Shown here: positions 4,000-42,857 of the stretch, piece by piece
Position numbering within the stretch: position 1 is the stretch's first letter
Layout: the number at the start of each line of letters is the position of its first letter
Origin: Curtobacterium sp. UCD-KPL2560
GTDB taxonomy: Bacteria > Actinomycetota > Actinomycetes > Actinomycetales > Microbacteriaceae
Reading direction: 5' to 3'
Assembly (NCBI RefSeq): GCF_001705035.1
Contig: NZ_MCIG01000002.1
Location: 3,110-67,109, forward strand
DNA: 64,000 nt
Program-made: the position numbers and the translations under genes
Notes under the pieces: generated by a model
What the model was told of the DNA's origin: nothing
What the model saw: the letters and a program-made list of their open reading frames with translations, nothing else
Database searches by the model: none

Positions 4000-5498
4000 T
4001 TCGAGACCTCCTGCAGGTCGTAGTCGATGTCGGTGCGGGCGATGCCCTTCGCGAAGGTCGCGAGGCTGTCGGCGCGGGAGTCGATGCGCCAGTCGTTCGT
4101 GGTGCGCGTGCCGTCGACGATGGTGGTCGCCACCTGGCTGAAGTACGCGAAGCCGATGACGTCACGGTTCGCCGGGTCGGCCAGGGCGTCGAACAGCGAG
4201 TCGAGCCACTGCGACTTCTGGCTGTCGGAGACCGTGCCCCCGGTCTCGGTCGCGCCGATCTCGTTGAGGACGATGTTCTTGCCCGGGGCGACCTTGCGGA
4301 TCTGGGCGAGGGTCGCGCCGAACGTGTTCTGGAAGGTCGGCTGCTCGGTCGGCGTGCGGTAGTAGCCGGACATGCCCACCCAGTCGACGTACTGCGCGCC
4401 CGGGTAGTACTGCTGCATGTACGCGAGCGTCTGGTAGTCCGGGTTGCCGAGCTTGTCGATGCGCGACGGCGACCAGTTCCAGATGACGTAGTCGTTCGCG
4501 CCGTTCGCCTGGAAGACGTTCCACACGTGCTGCCACATGGCCGTGTAGGAACCCTTCGCGTTCTGCTGCTTGGCGCCCTCGGACCAGTTGTACCAGGAGC
4601 CGTTCATCTCGTGGTCGAGGCGGATGACGAGGGGCATGCCGTTCGCCTTCAGCGCCTGCGCGTACCGCGTCAGGTAGTCGTCGAACCTGCCGGAGACGAT
4701 GTCCTGGTTCGTGTAGCCGGCGACGTAGGCCTCGTCGTTCCCGGTCTTCGCGGGCACGGTCTCCCACGTCATCATCGGCAGTCGTCCGTTCGCCCAGGAC
4801 CGCTGGACGGCGGTCTGGTTGAAGTCCTGGTCGAAGCCCTGGAAGAAGCCGACCATGTTCGTGGCCTTGCCGACCTCCTGCGAGACGCTGTCGTACTCAG
4901 CCCAGTTGAACGGTGCCTGCGCCGTGTAGAGCCCGAACCAGCGGGACTGCTGCCCGAGGATCTCGGCCTTCGACGGCGTGCTGATCGGTTCGGTCGCTGG
5001 GTCCTTCGAGGGGCCGGCGTTCGGCGAGCCAGCGCTGCCGCCGTGCGCCCCGGAACCACCCTTCGCCGCACCGCCGGCACCGGCGGCCTTGGCCGCGCCG
5101 GCCGCGCTCGCGGCCCCGGCCGCGGCGCTCTTCGCGGCGCCGAGGTCGGACTGCAGCGACGCGATCTGCGCCTTGAGCTTCGTGATCTCCTCGGCCCGCG
5201 AGCCGGCCTGGGCCCCGGAGGCGTCGAGCTTGCCCTCGAGCGCCCAGATCTGCTTCTGCGCGGCGGTGAGCTTCGTCTGGAGCTCGGCGGCGGACACCTT
5301 CTTCGACGCGGACGCCGGTGGGCGGACCCCGAGGGCCTCACCGACCGCCGTCGACACCGGACCGCCGGGCGACACCCAGACCATCCAGGTGATGAGTCCG
5401 AGGACGAGGACGATCGCGGTGGTCCCGATCGCGGTGCGACGGGCGTGCTTGCTGGACTGTGCCCACCAGGTACCGGTGGAGCGGATGAGGTCAGACAA
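3996..5498 (-). CDS. Membrane-anchored GH26 glycosidase with coiled coil
   Basis: The 500-residue protein has a single transmembrane anchor (about 24-42), a predicted coiled coil (about 66-125), an Ala/Gly-rich linker to about 165, and an outside-facing glycoside hydrolase family 26 domain (about 185-490). HEMNG carries the acid/base Glu297 and LNEIGATE the probable nucleophile Glu413. GH26 enzymes are beta-mannanases or related endo-glycanases; the substrate here is not visible. I chose the TTG at 5498 because it overlaps the synthase stop and restores a cytoplasmic tail before the anchor; the next in-frame ATG falls inside the membrane segment. Lying between a polymer synthase and UDP-glucose dehydrogenase, it probably trims, releases or senses the nascent polysaccharide at the cell surface. 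Confidence 0.85.
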   Translation of the reverse strand: MSDLIRSTGTWWAQSSKHARRTAIGTTAIVLVLGLITWMVWVSPGGPVSTAVGEALGVRPPASASKKVSAAELQTKLTAAQKQIWALEGKLDASGAQAGSRAEEITKLKAQIASLQSDLGAAKSAAAGAASAAGAAKAAGAGGAAKGGSGAHGGSAGSPNAGPSKDPATEPISTPSKAEILGQQSRWFGLYTAQAPFNWAEYDSVSQEVGKATNMVGFFQGFDQDFNQTAVQRSWANGRLPMMTWETVPAKTGNDEAYVAGYTNQDIVSGRFDDYLTRYAQALKANGMPLVIRLDHEMNGSWYNWSEGAKQQNAKGSYTAMWQHVWNVFQANGANDYVIWNWSPSRIDKLGNPDYQTLAYMQQYYPGAQYVDWVGMSGYYRTPTEQPTFQNTFGATLAQIRKVAPGKNIVLNEIGATETGGTVSDSQKSQWLDSLFDALADPANRDVIGFAYFSQVATTIVDGTRTTNDWRIDSRADSLATFAKGIARTDIDYDLQEVSK

Positions 5499-7077
5499 TG
5501 AGGAACGCCTCCAGAGCGAAGATCGCGATCCCGATGCAGTACGGGATCGCCGCGTACGGGTTGAGCCGGCGACCGCGGCGCGGCGCGGGGCGCCCGGCCG
5601 GGGCCGCGGCGGTGGCCGTCGAGCGGCGGGTCGCGAGGACCGTCGTGGTCGAGGTGGTGGTCGCGTCCGCGCCGAACAGCTCGTCGAAGGCGCGGTCGGC
5701 GGCGGCCTGTTCGGCCGGCAGCGCGCGGTCCGCGGCACCGGTCGCGGGGCCGTCGCCGGTCCCTGCGGCGTCGACCGGGCTCACCGGCGCGAGACCGGTC
5801 GTCGGCTGCACCGGCTCCTGCTCCATCGGTCCACCGGCGTACGCCCCGGCCCGGGTCCCCCACCCCGACGCGTGCGCCAGGCGGAAGAAGCCGATGAGCC
5901 GGATCGGCATGAGGAAGAAGGTCGACACGATGATGAAGAGCGGGAGCCGGAAGAAGTCGCTCGGCTTCTCGGACAGGTGTCGGATCTGCCGGATCGCCAT
6001 GCTCAGCACGCTCGAAACGACCATGAGTGCGGCGACGTAGACGAAGCCGGTCGAGAAGCCGTACTGCTGCAGGATGCCCTGGTACAGGTTCTCGCCCTGC
6101 CCGGTGAGCGCCCGGTAGATCCACCCGGCGATGACGCCGAACAGCATGAACGGCAGCAGGATGTCGGTGACGAAGAAGACCGCGAGCAGCGGGGCGTGCC
6201 CGAGCATCCACGGCAGCATCCGCAGCGTGTTGTACTGCGACCCGCGTGCCCAGCGCAGCTGCTGCTTGAACAGCTTCTTCACCTGGAGCGGTGCGTCCGT
6301 GTAGACGAGCGACGTGTACTGGTAGACGGTCCGGTACCCCTCCTTGAGCGTCAGGTTCGTGAGCGTCCGGTCGTCGGACACCTCGAGGAAGACGCCCATG
6401 AACTCCTCGTGCATGAACTTGTCCATCACGCGGGTGAGGATGCTGCGGCGGAACGCGATGGTCCGCCCGGGCAGGCAGCCGATCTGGCCGAGCACGCTCT
6501 GCGCGGGCATCGAGTACAGCGCCCGGGAGTTCTCGAGCCAGTCCGCCCAGCGGGTGATCCAGGACCGGGTCGGCTCGAGGATCCGCTGGCGGGTGGTGAC
6601 GCCGCCGACGGACTCGTCCGCGAACGGCTTCAGCAGCTCCTCGAGCGTGCCGGGCGTCCAGACGGTGTCGGAGTCGACGAGCACGGTGATGTCACCGTTC
6701 GAGAGCTCGGTGCCGACCTTGACGGCGTTGCGCTTGCCGGGGATCGGGGTGTGGGTCCAGCGGACGAGCGGGGCGAACTCGTCGCAGACCTCCTCGAGTG
6801 CCTCGTTGCGGGCGCCGTTGATGACGACGATGATCTCGCCCGGTCGCTGCTCGACCATGCGGCCGATGACGTCCCGGAAGAGGTCGAGCGGCTCGTCCAC
6901 CACGGGGACGACGACACTCGTCGTCCCGGTGTACGTGCCGGTGAAGGGGCGGTACCGGGCGGACAGCACGACCTTGAGGATCCAGAGCAACCAGATCACC
7001 GCGGAGTACACGGCGAACAGGTAGAACTCGGGATGCCCTTCGACCATCTGCCGGATCTGGAGGATGAAGGTGAACAT
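5491..7077 (-). CDS. Processive family 2 glycosyltransferase (polysaccharide synthase)
   Basis: This 528-residue membrane enzyme resembles cellulose, hyaluronan and NodC-type synthases. It has an N-terminal membrane segment (about 12-38), a GT-A domain with the VPVVDEP start, the DSD metal-binding motif, a second acidic ED/DD region (EVSDDRTLT) and the acceptor motif QQLRW. Several membrane segments follow (about 270-400), then a Pro/Ala/Thr-rich cytosolic stretch and a final hydrophobic helix. It probably polymerises a UDP-sugar and extrudes the product. I chose the ATG at 7077, preceded by AGGG; an in-frame TTG at 7092 has no better signal. It is the first gene of the operon with the GH26 hydrolase and UDP-glucose dehydrogenase, which makes a uronic-acid-containing polymer plausible. 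Confidence 0.87.
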   Translation of the reverse strand: MFTFILQIRQMVEGHPEFYLFAVYSAVIWLLWILKVVLSARYRPFTGTYTGTTSVVVPVVDEPLDLFRDVIGRMVEQRPGEIIVVINGARNEALEEVCDEFAPLVRWTHTPIPGKRNAVKVGTELSNGDITVLVDSDTVWTPGTLEELLKPFADESVGGVTTRQRILEPTRSWITRWADWLENSRALYSMPAQSVLGQIGCLPGRTIAFRRSILTRVMDKFMHEEFMGVFLEVSDDRTLTNLTLKEGYRTVYQYTSLVYTDAPLQVKKLFKQQLRWARGSQYNTLRMLPWMLGHAPLLAVFFVTDILLPFMLFGVIAGWIYRALTGQGENLYQGILQQYGFSTGFVYVAALMVVSSVLSMAIRQIRHLSEKPSDFFRLPLFIIVSTFFLMPIRLIGFFRLAHASGWGTRAGAYAGGPMEQEPVQPTTGLAPVSPVDAAGTGDGPATGAADRALPAEQAAADRAFDELFGADATTTSTTTVLATRRSTATAAAPAGRPAPRRGRRLNPYAAIPYCIGIAIFALEAFLIV

Positions 7078-7592
7078 CGATCCCTGCTTCAACGTTCGAG
7101 GTGGGGATTCCGCTCCATCGAGGAACCTGTGGGGGTTCGGGTGTCCTCATTGAGACAGAACCTGAACGTCGGCGCAACGCGTCCCCCGTCCGGGGGCGGT
7201 CGGGTCACCTCGCGGGGTACGTCGGTGTCCCCCACGGACTCGAGGAACGCTGTCCGCACTGCTGCTGACAGCACTGATGCGGACCGGTCAGTGTCGCGTC
7301 ACCGTTCCGTCGGGGCGCATCGACGGCCGGGAGGCGCGACCCGCTTCCGCCAGGAACCCCAGGTCAGCAGGTGGTCCCGACCGATCCGCGGGGTCGCCCG
7401 GCCCGGCTCGGTTGCGGGTCGCCGACGAGCGGAGCCGTCCGATGGTGCGCGTCGGCGCGGGGGTGACGGCGGGGTACGCCGGGAACGCGATCGGGGGACA
7501 GCGTTCGATGCACAGGAATCGACCCGGAGACCTTCTCAAGTTCGGGTCTCGGAGGTCGTCCCGGGCGTGTCGCGGCCGGGGTCAGCGCCGGG
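7078..7592 (-). other. 515-bp leader/intergenic region before the exopolysaccharide operon
   Basis: No coding sequence is supported. On the minus strand it lies between the glnE stop and the polysaccharide synthase start. It contains a stem-loop at 7252-7284 with outer arms GTCCGCA/TGCGGAC and an inner TGCTG/CAGCA helix, plus a short C5/G5 hairpin near 7191-7204. A half copy of the dispersed palindrome (CCGGGAGGCGCG) lies near 7329. The length and hairpins leave room for a regulated 5' leader, but I recognise no riboswitch class. Confidence 0.5.
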
Positions 7593-14258: not shown

Positions 14259-14625
14259 GCGAACGGGTCGGTGAGACGGTCGCGTCACTCCCCCGGGAGT
14301 GCCGAGGAACGTCCGGGCTCCACAGAGCAGGGCGGTGGGTAACACCCACCCGGAGCAATCCGCGAGACAGTGCCACAGAGAACAGACCGCCGGCGGCGAC
14401 GTCGGTAAGGGTGAAACGGTGGTGTAAGAGACCACCAGGGGTCCGGGTGACCGGATCCGCTCGGTAAACCTCGCCCGGAGCAAGGTCAGACAGAGGACGT
14501 CGAGGCTGCTCGCCGAGTCCTCGGGTAGACCGCTGGAGGCCGACGGCAACGTCGGTCCGAGAGAGATGGCCGTCACCGCCGCGTCAGCGGCGGGACAGAA
14601 CCCGGCGTACGGCCGGCCCGTTCGC
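14259..14625 (+). ncRNA. rnpB: RNase P RNA, bacterial class A
   Basis: The conserved P4/J region GAGGAACGUCCGGGCUCC (about 14305-14322) followed by ACAGAGCAGGGCGGUGGGUAAC and the 3' CAGAACCCGGCGUACGG element (about 14597-14613) identify the catalytic RNA of tRNA 5' maturation. The ends are set by the P1 helix, GCGAACGGG at 14259-14267 with CCCGTTCGC at 14617-14625. A long palindromic terminator begins 13 bp downstream. The mature ends may differ by a few bases. Confidence 0.95.
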
Positions 14626-40383: not shown

Positions 40384-40632
40384 TCAGGCGAGCGCGTGCC
40401 GCACGTAGGCGACGAGGGCGTTCGCGTGGCCGTGCCCGAGGCCGTGCTCCTCCTTGAGCCAGGTCACGACCTCCATGTGCCGGTGGGTGTCGAGCTGGTC
40501 GGCCACGAGGTCGAGCCACTCCTGGACCGGACGGCCGGAGGTCTTCTCGATGCTCGGGAAGTACGACGCCGGCCCCTTCGGCTTCGTGCCGTCCGCCGGC
40601 GGCTGCGGTGCGGTCACGCGGTGCGCTGTCAT
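40384..40632 (-). CDS. DUF4287 domain protein
   Basis: The 82-residue protein contains SYFPSIEKTSGRPVQEWLDLVADQ and HMEVVTWLKEEHGLGHGHANALVAYVRHALA, the DUF4287 signature. No function is known; the fold is a small helical domain seen in many actinobacterial proteins. TACGGT lies 6 nt before the ATG, so it is probably leaderless. It follows the reverse transcriptase gene on the same strand by 104 bp but shows no clear coupling to it. Confidence 0.85.
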   Translation of the reverse strand: MTAHRVTAPQPPADGTKPKGPASYFPSIEKTSGRPVQEWLDLVADQLDTHRHMEVVTWLKEEHGLGHGHANALVAYVRHALA

Positions 40633-40736: not shown

Positions 40737-42047
40737 TCACCACTCGATCCGGGCGAACAGCGCCCGGAGCTTCGCCGCCCGCTCCGGGTGCACCTGACCG
40801 ACCCAGCCGATCCGTCCGAGCAGGTGCGCCCGGAAGTCCGCGTGCCCCGCACGGTCCTGCGACGCCGGACCGTGCACGACGCAGTTGTGCAGCACGGCCT
40901 TGAGACGGTCGACCTCGCGGCGGCCGGGTGCGGTGCGCTCGTTCACGACCACACCGGTGACCGACTGCCGCACCCCGGCGGGCCGGACCCGGGTCTTCCG
41001 GGGGTTCAGCGTGTGGCCCTGGTCGGCGACGATCCGCTCGACACCGCGGAGGAACGCGTCGGCGCGGGCAGCGAGACGGTCGTCACCGCTGAAGGTCAGG
41101 TCGTCGGCGTACCGCGTGTACGTCGCCCCCGCTGCGGCCGCCCACCCGGCCAGTCGGGCGTCGAGGTGTCGGAGGGCCAGGTTGGCGAGCGCCGGCGACG
41201 TCGGGGCTCCCTGGGGCAGGTGCGCCTCGACGAGGGCGTCCCGGAGCGCCCGACGCTCGTCGACGCTCCCGCCCGGCGGCATCGCCGTGAGGACGTGGAC
41301 CGGGACCCGGTGCGTGCAGAGCCCGGTGAGGACGTGCGCCAGCGGCTCGGCGTACCCCGCGGCGCGGAACACGCCGTACACGGTCGGCGCACGGACCGTG
41401 ACGAAGAACGACGTGAGGTCGGCGGTCAGGACGACCCGGCGTCCGACGTGCCCGGCGGCACCGGTGACGACGCTGCGCCCGGGCACGAAGCCGTGCGCTG
41501 CGTCGTGGACCGGCAGCGCCGCGAGCAGGTCGTCGAGGACGGTCCGCTGGGTGCGCCGGAGCATCGCCATCGGCTTCTCGAGGAGCCTCGGGGTCCGCCC
41601 GGGCCGCGCGACCCACTCGTGCCGGACGTGGTGGAGCGGGCTCGACGCACCCGGACGGCGGTTCCACCCGCGGGTGTCGGCGAGCCAGAGCAACCGCCCC
41701 ACCGTCAGGTCGAGCGCTCGGGCGAGCTCGGGCAGCGTGTCGACGAGCAGCGGGCTGTCCGTCACCGGGCGCGCCCGCACGGCGGTGGCCTGCCGGGCCA
41801 GGACCCGGACGGGCCGTCGTGGTCCGCGGCTGTCGTGGAGGCGGACGAGGCGCGGGGCGGTCGCGAGCACCGCGGCGAGCTGCCGGGGCGCGTCGACGGG
41901 CGGCCGTGGGTACGCGTCGAGCGCCGTCCCGACCGCGACACCGACGTACGTCCGCTCCACCCCGAGCACGTCGTACCCGGCGGCGGTCAGCGCGTCGCGG
42001 CTCCAGTCGTCGGCGGCGAGGAAGGCGTCGGCGAGCGCCTGCGCCAC
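40737..42047 (-). CDS. Retron-type reverse transcriptase
   Basis: RNA-directed DNA polymerase of about 436 residues. After an N-terminal region of about 155 residues come the palm motifs: VVLTADLTSFF (catalytic Asp210), LPQGAPTSPALANL (277-290), YTRYADDLTFSG (YADD 313-316), LNPRKTRV (348-354), and RQSVTGVVVNE with the retron VTG (363-365). A TGAAGHVG segment with His200 stands where retrons have NAxxH. The thumb contains LKAVLHNCVVHGPASQDR and FRAHLLGRIGWV, as in chromosomal retron-type enzymes of the Myxococcus Mx162-like style, from memory. I chose the GTG at 42047 because the conserved N-terminus (LADAFLAADDWSRDALTAAGY) begins there. A leaderless GTG at 42227 would add about 60 disordered residues over a structured RNA candidate. 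No Cas1, maturase domain or diversity-generating repeat is nearby. Confidence 0.88.
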   Translation of the reverse strand: MAQALADAFLAADDWSRDALTAAGYDVLGVERTYVGVAVGTALDAYPRPPVDAPRQLAAVLATAPRLVRLHDSRGPRRPVRVLARQATAVRARPVTDSPLLVDTLPELARALDLTVGRLLWLADTRGWNRRPGASSPLHHVRHEWVARPGRTPRLLEKPMAMLRRTQRTVLDDLLAALPVHDAAHGFVPGRSVVTGAAGHVGRRVVLTADLTSFFVTVRAPTVYGVFRAAGYAEPLAHVLTGLCTHRVPVHVLTAMPPGGSVDERRALRDALVEAHLPQGAPTSPALANLALRHLDARLAGWAAAAGATYTRYADDLTFSGDDRLAARADAFLRGVERIVADQGHTLNPRKTRVRPAGVRQSVTGVVVNERTAPGRREVDRLKAVLHNCVVHGPASQDRAGHADFRAHLLGRIGWVGQVHPERAAKLRALFARIEW

Positions 42048-42071
42048 GACCGGGAGCGGTGCGTGCGTGGG

Positions 42072-42222
42072 GTTCCCGGGGGACCTGTCGGTGCCTCCGT
42101 GAGGGCTGGTGCGCGGAGCGCGCCGCGCCTCTCGGGGCGTGTGGTCCTGCTGGTCCTGCGTGCCCCGGGGTGACCCCGGAGAGGTCGACGCGTCACGCGC
42201 GCCGTCCGCCTCCCCCGGGAAC
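42072..42222 (-). ncRNA. Candidate retron msr-msd RNA
   Basis: On the minus strand, GTTCCCGGGGGA (42222-42211) is matched perfectly by its reverse complement at 42083-42072, giving 12-bp ends like a1/a2 of a retron RNA. Between them lie a bulged 10-bp stem (CCTCTC-GGGG type, 42184-42128 outer ends) and a smaller hairpin (CGCGG/CCGCG type near 42113-42127). The segment begins within about 12 nt of a TATGGT hexamer and ends 25 bp before the reverse transcriptase start chosen here. The branching guanosine and msd boundary are not identified. It is a prediction from position and structure only. Confidence 0.45.
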
Positions 42223-42233
42223 TCCACGAGCAC

Positions 42234-42239
42234 ACCATA
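42234..42239 (-). promoter_or_regulatory. Promoter -10 hexamer of the retron unit
   Basis: TATGGT on the minus strand is a good TAnnnT -10 element. Transcription would begin near 42227, at the 5' end of the candidate msr-msd RNA and within the 60-bp divergent region shared with the histidine phosphatase gene. Confidence 0.5.
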
Positions 42240-42287
42240 CGACCGACCCCTGCCGTGGTGGCGGGACGGGTCTGCCAGGCTGTGCCG

Positions 42288-42857
42288 GTGCCGTCGTTCT
42301 TCCTGACCCACGCCGAGGTCGTCGTCGACCCCGCGGTCCCGATCGAGTCCTGGGGACTGTCGGACTCCGGCCGCGCCCGGGCGTCCGGCGCGCACCGCGT
42401 CGCGTGGGCACCCGGGGTGCGCCGGATCGTCTCGAGCACCGAGCGCAAGGCCGTCGAGACCGCGGCCGTCCTCGGCGCGGCGGTCGGTGTGGTGCCGGAG
42501 CAGGACGCGCGGCTCGGCGAGATCGACCGGAGCGCGACCGGCTACCTGCCTCCCGAGGCGTTCGAACCGGTGGTCGACGCGTTCTTCGCGCGGCCCGAGG
42601 AGTCGGTGCGAGGGTGGGAGCGGGCGGTCGACGCGCAGCGCCGGATCGTCGGGGCGGTCCGCGACCTCACCGCCGCCGCCGGTCGGGGCACGGACGTCAC
42701 CGTGGTGGCCCACGGCGCTGTCGGGGCGCTGCTCCTCGCCGACCTGCGGGGCGAGCCCGTCTCGCGGCGCCTGGACCAGCCGGGCATGGGCAGCGTGTTC
42801 ACGTTCGACCCGCGCACCTGGCGGGCGCTGAGCGGCTGGACCCGCCTCGACCCCTGA
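42288..42857 (+). CDS. Histidine phosphatase family protein
   Basis: The 189-residue protein has the phosphoglycerate-mutase-like layout with SFFLTHAEV in place of RHG, SSTERKAVETA, LGEIDR and the second histidine VVAHGAVGALL. The first motif keeps the catalytic histidine but not the preceding arginine (T-H-A-E), so activity may be altered. GTG 42288 is preceded by CAGGCT six bases upstream. It is divergent from the retron unit; RidA follows 38 bp after. Confidence 0.8.
   Translation: MPSFFLTHAEVVVDPAVPIESWGLSDSGRARASGAHRVAWAPGVRRIVSSTERKAVETAAVLGAAVGVVPEQDARLGEIDRSATGYLPPEAFEPVVDAFFARPEESVRGWERAVDAQRRIVGAVRDLTAAAGRGTDVTVVAHGAVGALLLADLRGEPVSRRLDQPGMGSVFTFDPRTWRALSGWTRLDP

Follow-up and report, generated by a model that had tools for sequence, protein, structure and literature searches.

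A probable orphan retron of Curtobacterium whose template RNA also appears to be a leaderless message coupled to its reverse transcriptase

Retron-Eco1 (Ec86) and the other retrons with solved reverse transcriptase (RT) structures share an RT fold bearing YADD, VTG and the histidine of region X, together with an RNA upstream of the enzyme that is bounded by the pairing segments a1 and a2. To our knowledge, retron template RNAs have been treated as noncoding. Actinobacteria possess leaderless genes, with the start codon at the start of the transcript, and ATGA-coupled gene pairs, with stop and start codons overlapping by 1 or 4 nt. Putative actinobacterial retrons have been noted before (PMC6868368), and the motifs of retron RTs are defined as NAXXH for region X and VTG for region Y (PMC4244168; PMC6868368). 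Myxobacterial retrons, including Retron-Mxa1 (Mx162), are described as having an extended RT N-terminus and as likely being inherited vertically (PMC6868368, PMC8867640). Retron-Bth1 is described as a putative, unclassified retron with no obvious effector, which carries a group II intron and resides on a mobile element (PMC12548924). Our search of the literature on retrons in actinobacteria, Curtobacterium and myxobacteria, on leaderless starts and on coupling returned no title or abstract dealing with this RNA or with a translated template; the central surveys lay outside its scope, and the novelty of the RNA and of the translated template is not proven.

The window, i.e. the whole 64,000-nt stretch of Curtobacterium sp. 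UCD-KPL2560 DNA that we analysed, contains a locus with all the features listed above for Retron-Eco1 and the other solved systems, but its RT has an extra N-terminal domain, no effector was found in the neighbourhood searched, and its RNA opens with a start codon whose frame is continuous with, or coupled to, that of the RT (Table 1). Both the extended N-terminus and the likely vertical inheritance are shared with Retron-Mxa1 and the myxobacterial retrons, to which we liken the locus by description alone; msDNA is proven there, whereas here it is predicted from the sequence. Retron-Bth1, known to us by description, resembles the locus in having no obvious effector but differs from it in its intron and its mobile setting. 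When set against leaderless and ATGA-coupled actinobacterial gene pairs, the locus differs in that the upstream "gene" is a structured, putative template RNA without a conserved peptide. In our view the locus is probably an orphan retron in which the template RNA also serves as a leaderless, translated mRNA coupled to the RT.

Table 1. Features of the retron-like locus in the window; the roles of the RNA elements are predicted
Feature	Position	Strand	Remarks
-10-like hexamer TATGGT	42234..42239	-	6 nt before the first codon
a1 arm CGTGGAGTTCCCGGGGGA	42211..42228	-	helix 1 of alignment A1: 16 pairs; both-side changes at 13; 96.4% of cells paired
GTG predicted to be both the transcription start and the leaderless start codon of the fused ORF	42225..42227	-	
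Candidate priming (branch) guanosine	42210..42210	-	first nt past the a1 stem
msr-like hairpin 1	42183..42207	-	helix 2 of A1: 9 pairs, 7 with both-side changes
msr-like hairpin 2, CTCCGGGG TCA CCCCGGGG	42163..42181	-	helix 3 of A1: 8 pairs
msd-like hairpin, two stacked helices	42097..42135	-	helices 4 and 5 of A1: 12 pairs, 7 with both-side changes
Conserved linker ahead of a2	42084..42096	-	conserved columns in A1 and A3
a2 arm TCCCCCGGGAACCCCACG	42066..42083	-	pairs with a1; compensatory changes in A1 and A3
Fused ORF, 496 aa	40737..42227	-	open frame; RNA = codons 1 to 54, then linker and RT
Conserved RT part (P0001)	42050..40737	-	437 aa and stop; YADD, GAAGH (region X), VTG
Helical N-terminal domain of the RT			RT residues 1-75
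RT domain			RT residues about 95-437

A preliminary description, made from the sequence alone, had reported an RT with YADD, LPQGAPTSP and VTG, and all three motifs are indeed present in the translation of the minus strand. YADD occurs in each of the 32 RTs of our protein alignment (A2). Region X has lost the N of NAXXH in the window enzyme but kept its A and H, and the histidine (H201) is invariant across A2. Residues 364-366 read VTG in 16 of the 32 proteins and LAG in 10; the LAG variant is visible in the translations of a Burkholderia locus (L048) and an Acidobacteriaceae locus (L035). The window RT carries the three motifs of a retron RT, namely YADD, region X and VTG. Its best PADLOC models were RT_other (PDLC02949, 4e-171) and RT_outgroup (PDLC03740, 2e-161), but these are HMM bins only. 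The same two models were best for 6 of 10 further RTs scanned, all 6 accompanied by the RNA described below, and the remaining 4, which lack this RNA, matched best to RT_XIII or RT_III-A.

The AlphaFold model of the window RT (pLDDT 90.7, pTM 0.74) was compared with known structures. In Foldseek, rows 1-18 were all retron RTs. In VIA-align, the first 14 rows were retron RTs (Z from 27.9 to 20.8), headed by Retron-Eco1 (7v9x: Z 27.9, rmsd 3.0, 301 aligned residues, 29% identity) and followed by G2L4 (Z 19.8) and a diversity-generating RT (Z 19.4); one more retron RT stood at rank 23 (Z 17.1), under the G2L4, diversity-generating and group II rows. The DRT2/DRT9 structures 9c0i (Z 17.8) and 9vma (Z 15.5) were placed under most retron RTs (best 27.9). 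The preliminary description had named placement of the enzyme outside retrons as a refutation; judged by HMMs and by this predicted fold, the window enzyme groups with retron RTs. The N-terminal domain, folded alone (residues 1-105, pLDDT 83), had a best Foldseek match in the PDB at E = 1.5, and no fold was assigned to it.

Upstream of the RT, the perfect 12-bp inverted repeat reported in the preliminary description is found at 42222-42211 and 42083-42072 of the minus strand. It belongs to longer arms of 26 nt that are 85% complementary (42236-42211 and 42083-42058); the 151-nt segment described as bounded by this repeat was therefore real in its repeat and too short in its a1/a2. A perfect repeat of 12 arose in 2 of 400 dinucleotide shuffles of 42249-42030, so that the rough estimate of about once in 100 tries was about right. 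Folding of this region, also proposed as a check, gave z = -4.53 for the RNA 42237-42055, and none of 200 shuffles was equally stable.

For covariation we used two alignments. Of the 74 distinct RNAs extracted, 24 were taken into A1. They come from Curtobacterium, Naasia, Microbacterium, Frigoribacterium, Cryobacterium, Subtercola and Arthrobacter, were all trimmed to 192 nt at constant distances from hairpin 2, and align gap-free. The consensus consists of an a1/a2 stem, two msr-like hairpins and a two-part msd-like hairpin (pair numbers in Table 1). Pairing holds in 96.9% of the A1 cells. Changes on both sides are seen at 27 of the 45 pairs and amount to 161 cells, where 500 shuffles gave 55 +/- 5 and slid controls never more than 39. 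A3 covers 60 chosen RNA-bearing loci, and in this alignment, which was fitted to a covariance model, both-side changes occur at 40 of 45 pairs and in 599 cells (160 +/- 11 when shuffled, at most 97 in slid controls). Within the a1/a2 stem, compensatory change affects 13 of 16 pairs in A1, where the other 3 never vary, and 15 of 16 in A3. The repeats are thus kept upstream of orthologous RTs, a test named in the preliminary description, and they are kept with compensatory change. Hairpin 2 behaves differently in the two sets: 6 of its 8 pairs never vary in A1 and none has both-side changes, and in A3 5 of 8 have them. By covariation, the segment upstream of the RT is a real structured RNA and, as in retrons, it adjoins the enzyme and has its 5' and 3' ends paired with each other, with compensatory changes in both alignments.

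In 58 of 60 family members a G directly follows the a1 stem, in the contexts GAGA (22), GAGG (17), AAGC (10), GAGC (6), GAGT (2) and AAGT (1). In retrons, the priming guanosine is described as lying within the a1 strand of the stem or immediately behind it (PMC6868368), and G42210 matches this place, which makes it a candidate for priming. The conserved linker ahead of a2 is likely to be the first stretch copied. For this RNA, Rfam 15 gave no match at gathering score in the window and 8 relatives, and a search with 41950-42350 of the window at E up to 10 returned a chance miRNA match only. Elsewhere in the window, the bacterial RNase P class A RNA was recognised at 14264-14624 on the plus strand (RF00010, 276.5 bits).

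With a covariance model built from the A1 RNAs, 67 of 82 loci gave a match to the RNA at E up to 0.1 (65 of them at 0.01), one per locus and always upstream of the RT and on the same strand. Fifty-four of these 67 loci are not in A1, and 4 of the 54 (L001, L004, L006 and L020) are close Curtobacterium relatives. With the same cut-off of 0.1, no match came from the other 15 loci (L031, L051, L052, L059, L068, L070, L073-L080 and L124). Among 30 further RT loci it was found in 25 at below 1e-5, and the 5 misses were distant RTs. The RNA-bearing loci include ones named as Actinobacteria, Proteobacteria, Acidobacteria, Planctomycetes and Verrucomicrobia, so the retron-like RNA that had been noticed beside the RT adjoins related RTs in other phyla too. 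Several RT loci lacking this RNA have features of their own. L124 (genome G061) holds a second, different retron-type RT of the genus, best matched by RT_III-A; L073 and L074 are best matched by RT_XIII; L070, L075, L076, L077 and L079 have a common ORF group about 0.7-1.2 kb upstream. The frame of an RT_III-A-like RT (L158) continues into a long C-terminal part with HELAH, by eye a metallopeptidase fusion.

The window genome has a single copy each of RT and RNA. Across the genus, the RT was matched in 44 of 66 genomes and the RNA in 44 of 66, and the two sets of genomes are identical; the check for RNA without RT covered these 66 genomes, with stricter filters, and the fetched loci. At one genus locus (L123, genome G035) the RNA is intact and the RT match is split into residues 1-265 and 315-425. 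RTs at E below 1e-20 were present in 16 of 297 genomes of an order sample and 18 of 394 of a class sample, a few of them distant RTs; the two samples overlap in three genomes (G000, which is the window genome, G292 and G106). When 20 related loci were compared with 30000-55000 of the window, several shared the chromosomal neighbourhood, and in 5 (L115, L117, L118, L120 and L121) the sole shared piece was about 42241-40736, which comprises promoter, RNA and RT. Outside the genus the spread is patchy; together with near-fixation in two thirds of the genus, this fits either defence or an inherited cellular role.

The neighbourhood was also searched for an effector: ORFs of at least 90 aa within 7 kb of the RT were clustered over up to 95 loci, with flanks limited by contig ends. 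Inspection by eye of the 25 largest shared neighbour ORF groups tied no effector to the RT; all were rejected, some because they are shadow frames, some because they belong to generic families such as ABC transporters and dehydrogenases, and some because they neighbour other kinds of RT. The view that the RT is an orphan without a linked effector holds as far as we looked, i.e. for these 25 groups and for the 5 of 20 loci that share only promoter, RNA and RT. It is possible that an effector is distant or acts in trans, or that the N-terminal domain itself acts as one. Just downstream of the RT lies a small ORF (40384-40632, minus strand), by eye DUF4287-like, which is matched in some related loci and not in all.

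The TATGGT promoter hexamer noticed previously next to the RNA lies at 42239-42234, and the first codon of the RNA follows it closely. In 39 of 41 distinct genus sequences this first codon, placed 6 nt behind a -10-like hexamer, is an NTG in the RT frame: GTG throughout, except for ATG in L117 and TTG in L108. By our reading of the sequences these two changes are unmatched in a2, and they suit a start codon. The other two sequences, L120 and L121, have a longer linker; L120 is fused too, and L121 has the same RNA. The 39 sequences share one linker layout, and in 28 of them no further ATG, GTG or TTG occurs in frame until about RT residue 23. The preliminary description had placed the RT start 25 bp after the repeat, but this GTG at 42047 is not conserved (a GTG or TTG is found near its position in 11 of 39 sequences), and the only start codon common to the genus set is the GTG at 42227-42225. 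The earlier proposal of a retron-type RT with a candidate msr-msd RNA is thus supported in substance; what it missed is the leaderless, putatively translated layout. Across almost all of the genus set, the RNA thus seems to supply codons 1-54 of the fused protein.

In most other actinobacterial relatives the arrangement is different: the leaderless frame crosses the RNA, and its stop overlaps the RT start as ATGA, GTGA or TGATG. This overlap is seen in Microbacterium, Frigoribacterium, Cryobacterium, Kineosporia, Micromonospora, Nocardia, Saccharothrix, Crossiella and Geodermatophilaceae, among others, and also in two Acidimicrobiia and two deltaproteobacterial loci. Starts were searched for as an NTG preceded at 5-8 nt by a NANNNT hexamer; for 37 of the 40 cluster representatives the observed distance was 6 or 7. 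We set this rule with the pattern already in view and later widened it a single time. In a stricter first pass, 14 NTG loci had stayed unexplained and L065 had received a wrong candidate; after these had been read individually, the rule also admitted CANNNT and GANNNT hexamers, stops no more than 8 nt away and chained frames, and it used an improved RT anchor. After duplicate RNAs were dropped, 124 distinct loci remained. An NTG stands at the predicted start in 92 of them; in 9 of the 92 two or more codons qualify, and the one that came first by hexamer and spacing was used. The 92 comprise 43 fused loci, 36 with an overlap of 1 or 4 nt, 7 with the stop within 8 nt, 5 chains and 1 with none of these (L060), and the 32 loci without NTG are mostly named Proteobacteria, Acidobacteria and Planctomycetes.

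Grouped at 70% identity, the loci form 61 clusters, 41 of which have the NTG: 4 fused, 26 overlapping by 1 or 4 nt, 5 near (within 8 nt), 5 chains and 1 none. As controls we read each of these starting points in its other two frames, which gave 82 frames; of these, 4 overlap, 1 is near, 15 chain, 24 run into the RT and 38 do neither. Direct overlap is found in 26 of 37 unfused clusters versus 4 of 82 control frames (p = 1.2e-13), or versus 4 of 74 when controls come from unfused clusters only (p = 8.8e-13), and overlap or nearness in 31 of 37 versus 5 of 82 (p = 1.7e-17); the clusters behind these values are not fully independent. Fusion taken alone argues little for coupling, because the RT frame is open through the RNA in 24 of the 82 control frames. 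Chained frames (L129, L145, L151 and others) were likewise dropped as evidence, given the 15 control frames that chain. The RT starts of coupled loci have no Shine-Dalgarno match (median -1.7, window background -3.0), and this sign was dropped as well, as proteobacterial members are also without a match. The NTG may be held in part by its pairing within a1.

Exceptions exist. Most proteobacterial members have an ATG after a2 and no NTG at the RNA start. Beyond the proteobacterial and planctomycete group, the script found no NTG in nine loci (L010, L015, L022, L026, L033, L040, L122, L131 and L135); L010 is named Acidobacteria, L135 was scored so because its model match is partial, and L033, L040 and L131, the last a relative of L015, have neither an NTG nor a placeable RT start. 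In L015 the first codon of the RNA is ATC, and a strong Shine-Dalgarno match (-10.9) precedes the ATG of the RT. L122 (genome G024) belongs to the same genus as the window and is uncoupled: its RNA lies 2 kb upstream of the RT, with ACG where the NTG is expected and with 18-nt a1/a2 arms that, by eye, are complementary and of different sequence, and its RT has a -10-like hexamer and a GTG of its own. RNA and RT each have their own -10-like hexamer at this locus, and between them, at about 5440-7366 and on the opposite strand, lies an insert encoding, by eye, a PIN-like protein and an HTH/excisionase-like partner.

Hairpin 2, nearly unchanging at the RNA level, is read in frames 0, 1 and 2 in 21, 13 and 56 of the 90 loci scored, most of the 56 coming from one genus (L030 and L038 were scored at another GC stretch, and L145 and L152 were unscorable). 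Because the conserved hairpin is read in all three frames, there is no conserved peptide. Diversity by codon position is flat in the Curtobacterium RNA part (0.092/0.080/0.084, 40 sequences), as opposed to RT codons 151-250 (0.126/0.073/0.353, 29 sequences). On both grounds we rejected a conserved peptide encoded by the RNA. From these comparisons, selection acts on the RNA and not on the peptide, and what is kept of the frame is its beginning and its end.

We thus propose the following scenario. RNA polymerase would most likely start at 42227, and the first nucleotides of the RNA would form the start codon. A ribosome would load on this 5'-terminal GTG and read a1, msr, msd and a2, after which it would either continue into the RT, as in the fused window ORF, or stop on the RT start and restart there, as in the coupled loci of most other actinobacterial relatives. 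Alternatively, the RNA would fold and be bound by the RT, which would prime at G42210 and copy the msd hairpin region into an msDNA of perhaps 50-70 nt, as estimated from the fold. Each transcript would have these two mutually exclusive fates, i.e. it would be either unfolded and translated, or a folded, RT-bound template. Since the fates exclude each other on one molecule, bound RT should lower further RT synthesis: by sitting on the folded RNA it would close the start codon, and RT synthesis could thereby be held to the amount of free template RNA available. More tentatively, we hypothesize a retron family in which msr-msd is read as codons by a leaderless ribosome and RT binding hides the start, which might sense template supply or a block of leaderless initiation (e.g. 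phage takeover of ribosomes) and switch from enzyme to msDNA; we regard this wider idea as possible, though somewhat short of likely.

One could assume instead a conventional orphan retron, in which the RNA is untranslated, the RT starts after a2 (at GTG 42047) or at a non-standard codon, and the overlap is a by-product of GC-rich sequence. On one hand, open frames are common at such GC content, as the 24 of 82 control frames running into the RT illustrate, the proteobacterial members mostly do have their ATG after a2 and no NTG where the RNA begins, and a GTG or TTG lies near 42047 in 11 of 39 genus sequences. On the other hand, 28 of those 39 sequences have no usual start from the first codon of the RNA to about residue 23, and overlaps of 1 or 4 nt are far more frequent in the unfused clusters (26 of 37) than in control frames (4 of 82). 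We therefore find this explanation unlikely.

Two further readings deny the RNA its role as a template. The RNA might be a structured 5' leader that merely regulates the RT, in the manner of an attenuator or riboswitch, and yields no msDNA. A leaderless frame, hairpins and coupling would indeed suit a leader that senses translation, yet the fold is that of a retron template, with a1/a2, a G after a1 in 58 of 60 members and msr-like and msd-like hairpins, the enzyme is a retron-type RT, and in L122 the RNA persists 2 kb away from the RT, where it is no longer an immediate leader; we consider such a leader quite improbable. Still harder to uphold is an ordinary coding sequence, i.e. an RT extended at its N-terminus by codons that fold by chance. 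The region is in the RT frame and open in the 39 genus sequences compared, but the absence of a third-position excess, the use of three frames across relatives and the massive compensatory change make this very improbable.

The arrangement seen in dozens of relatives implies passage of ribosomes along the template RNA, in line with the leaderless, coupled reading that we favour; this would offer a direct and testable answer to the question of how enzyme and template are balanced in a retron. The work also yields a covariance model, absent from Rfam, for a broad retron group without a linked effector, and the uncoupled exceptions provide a natural comparison set.
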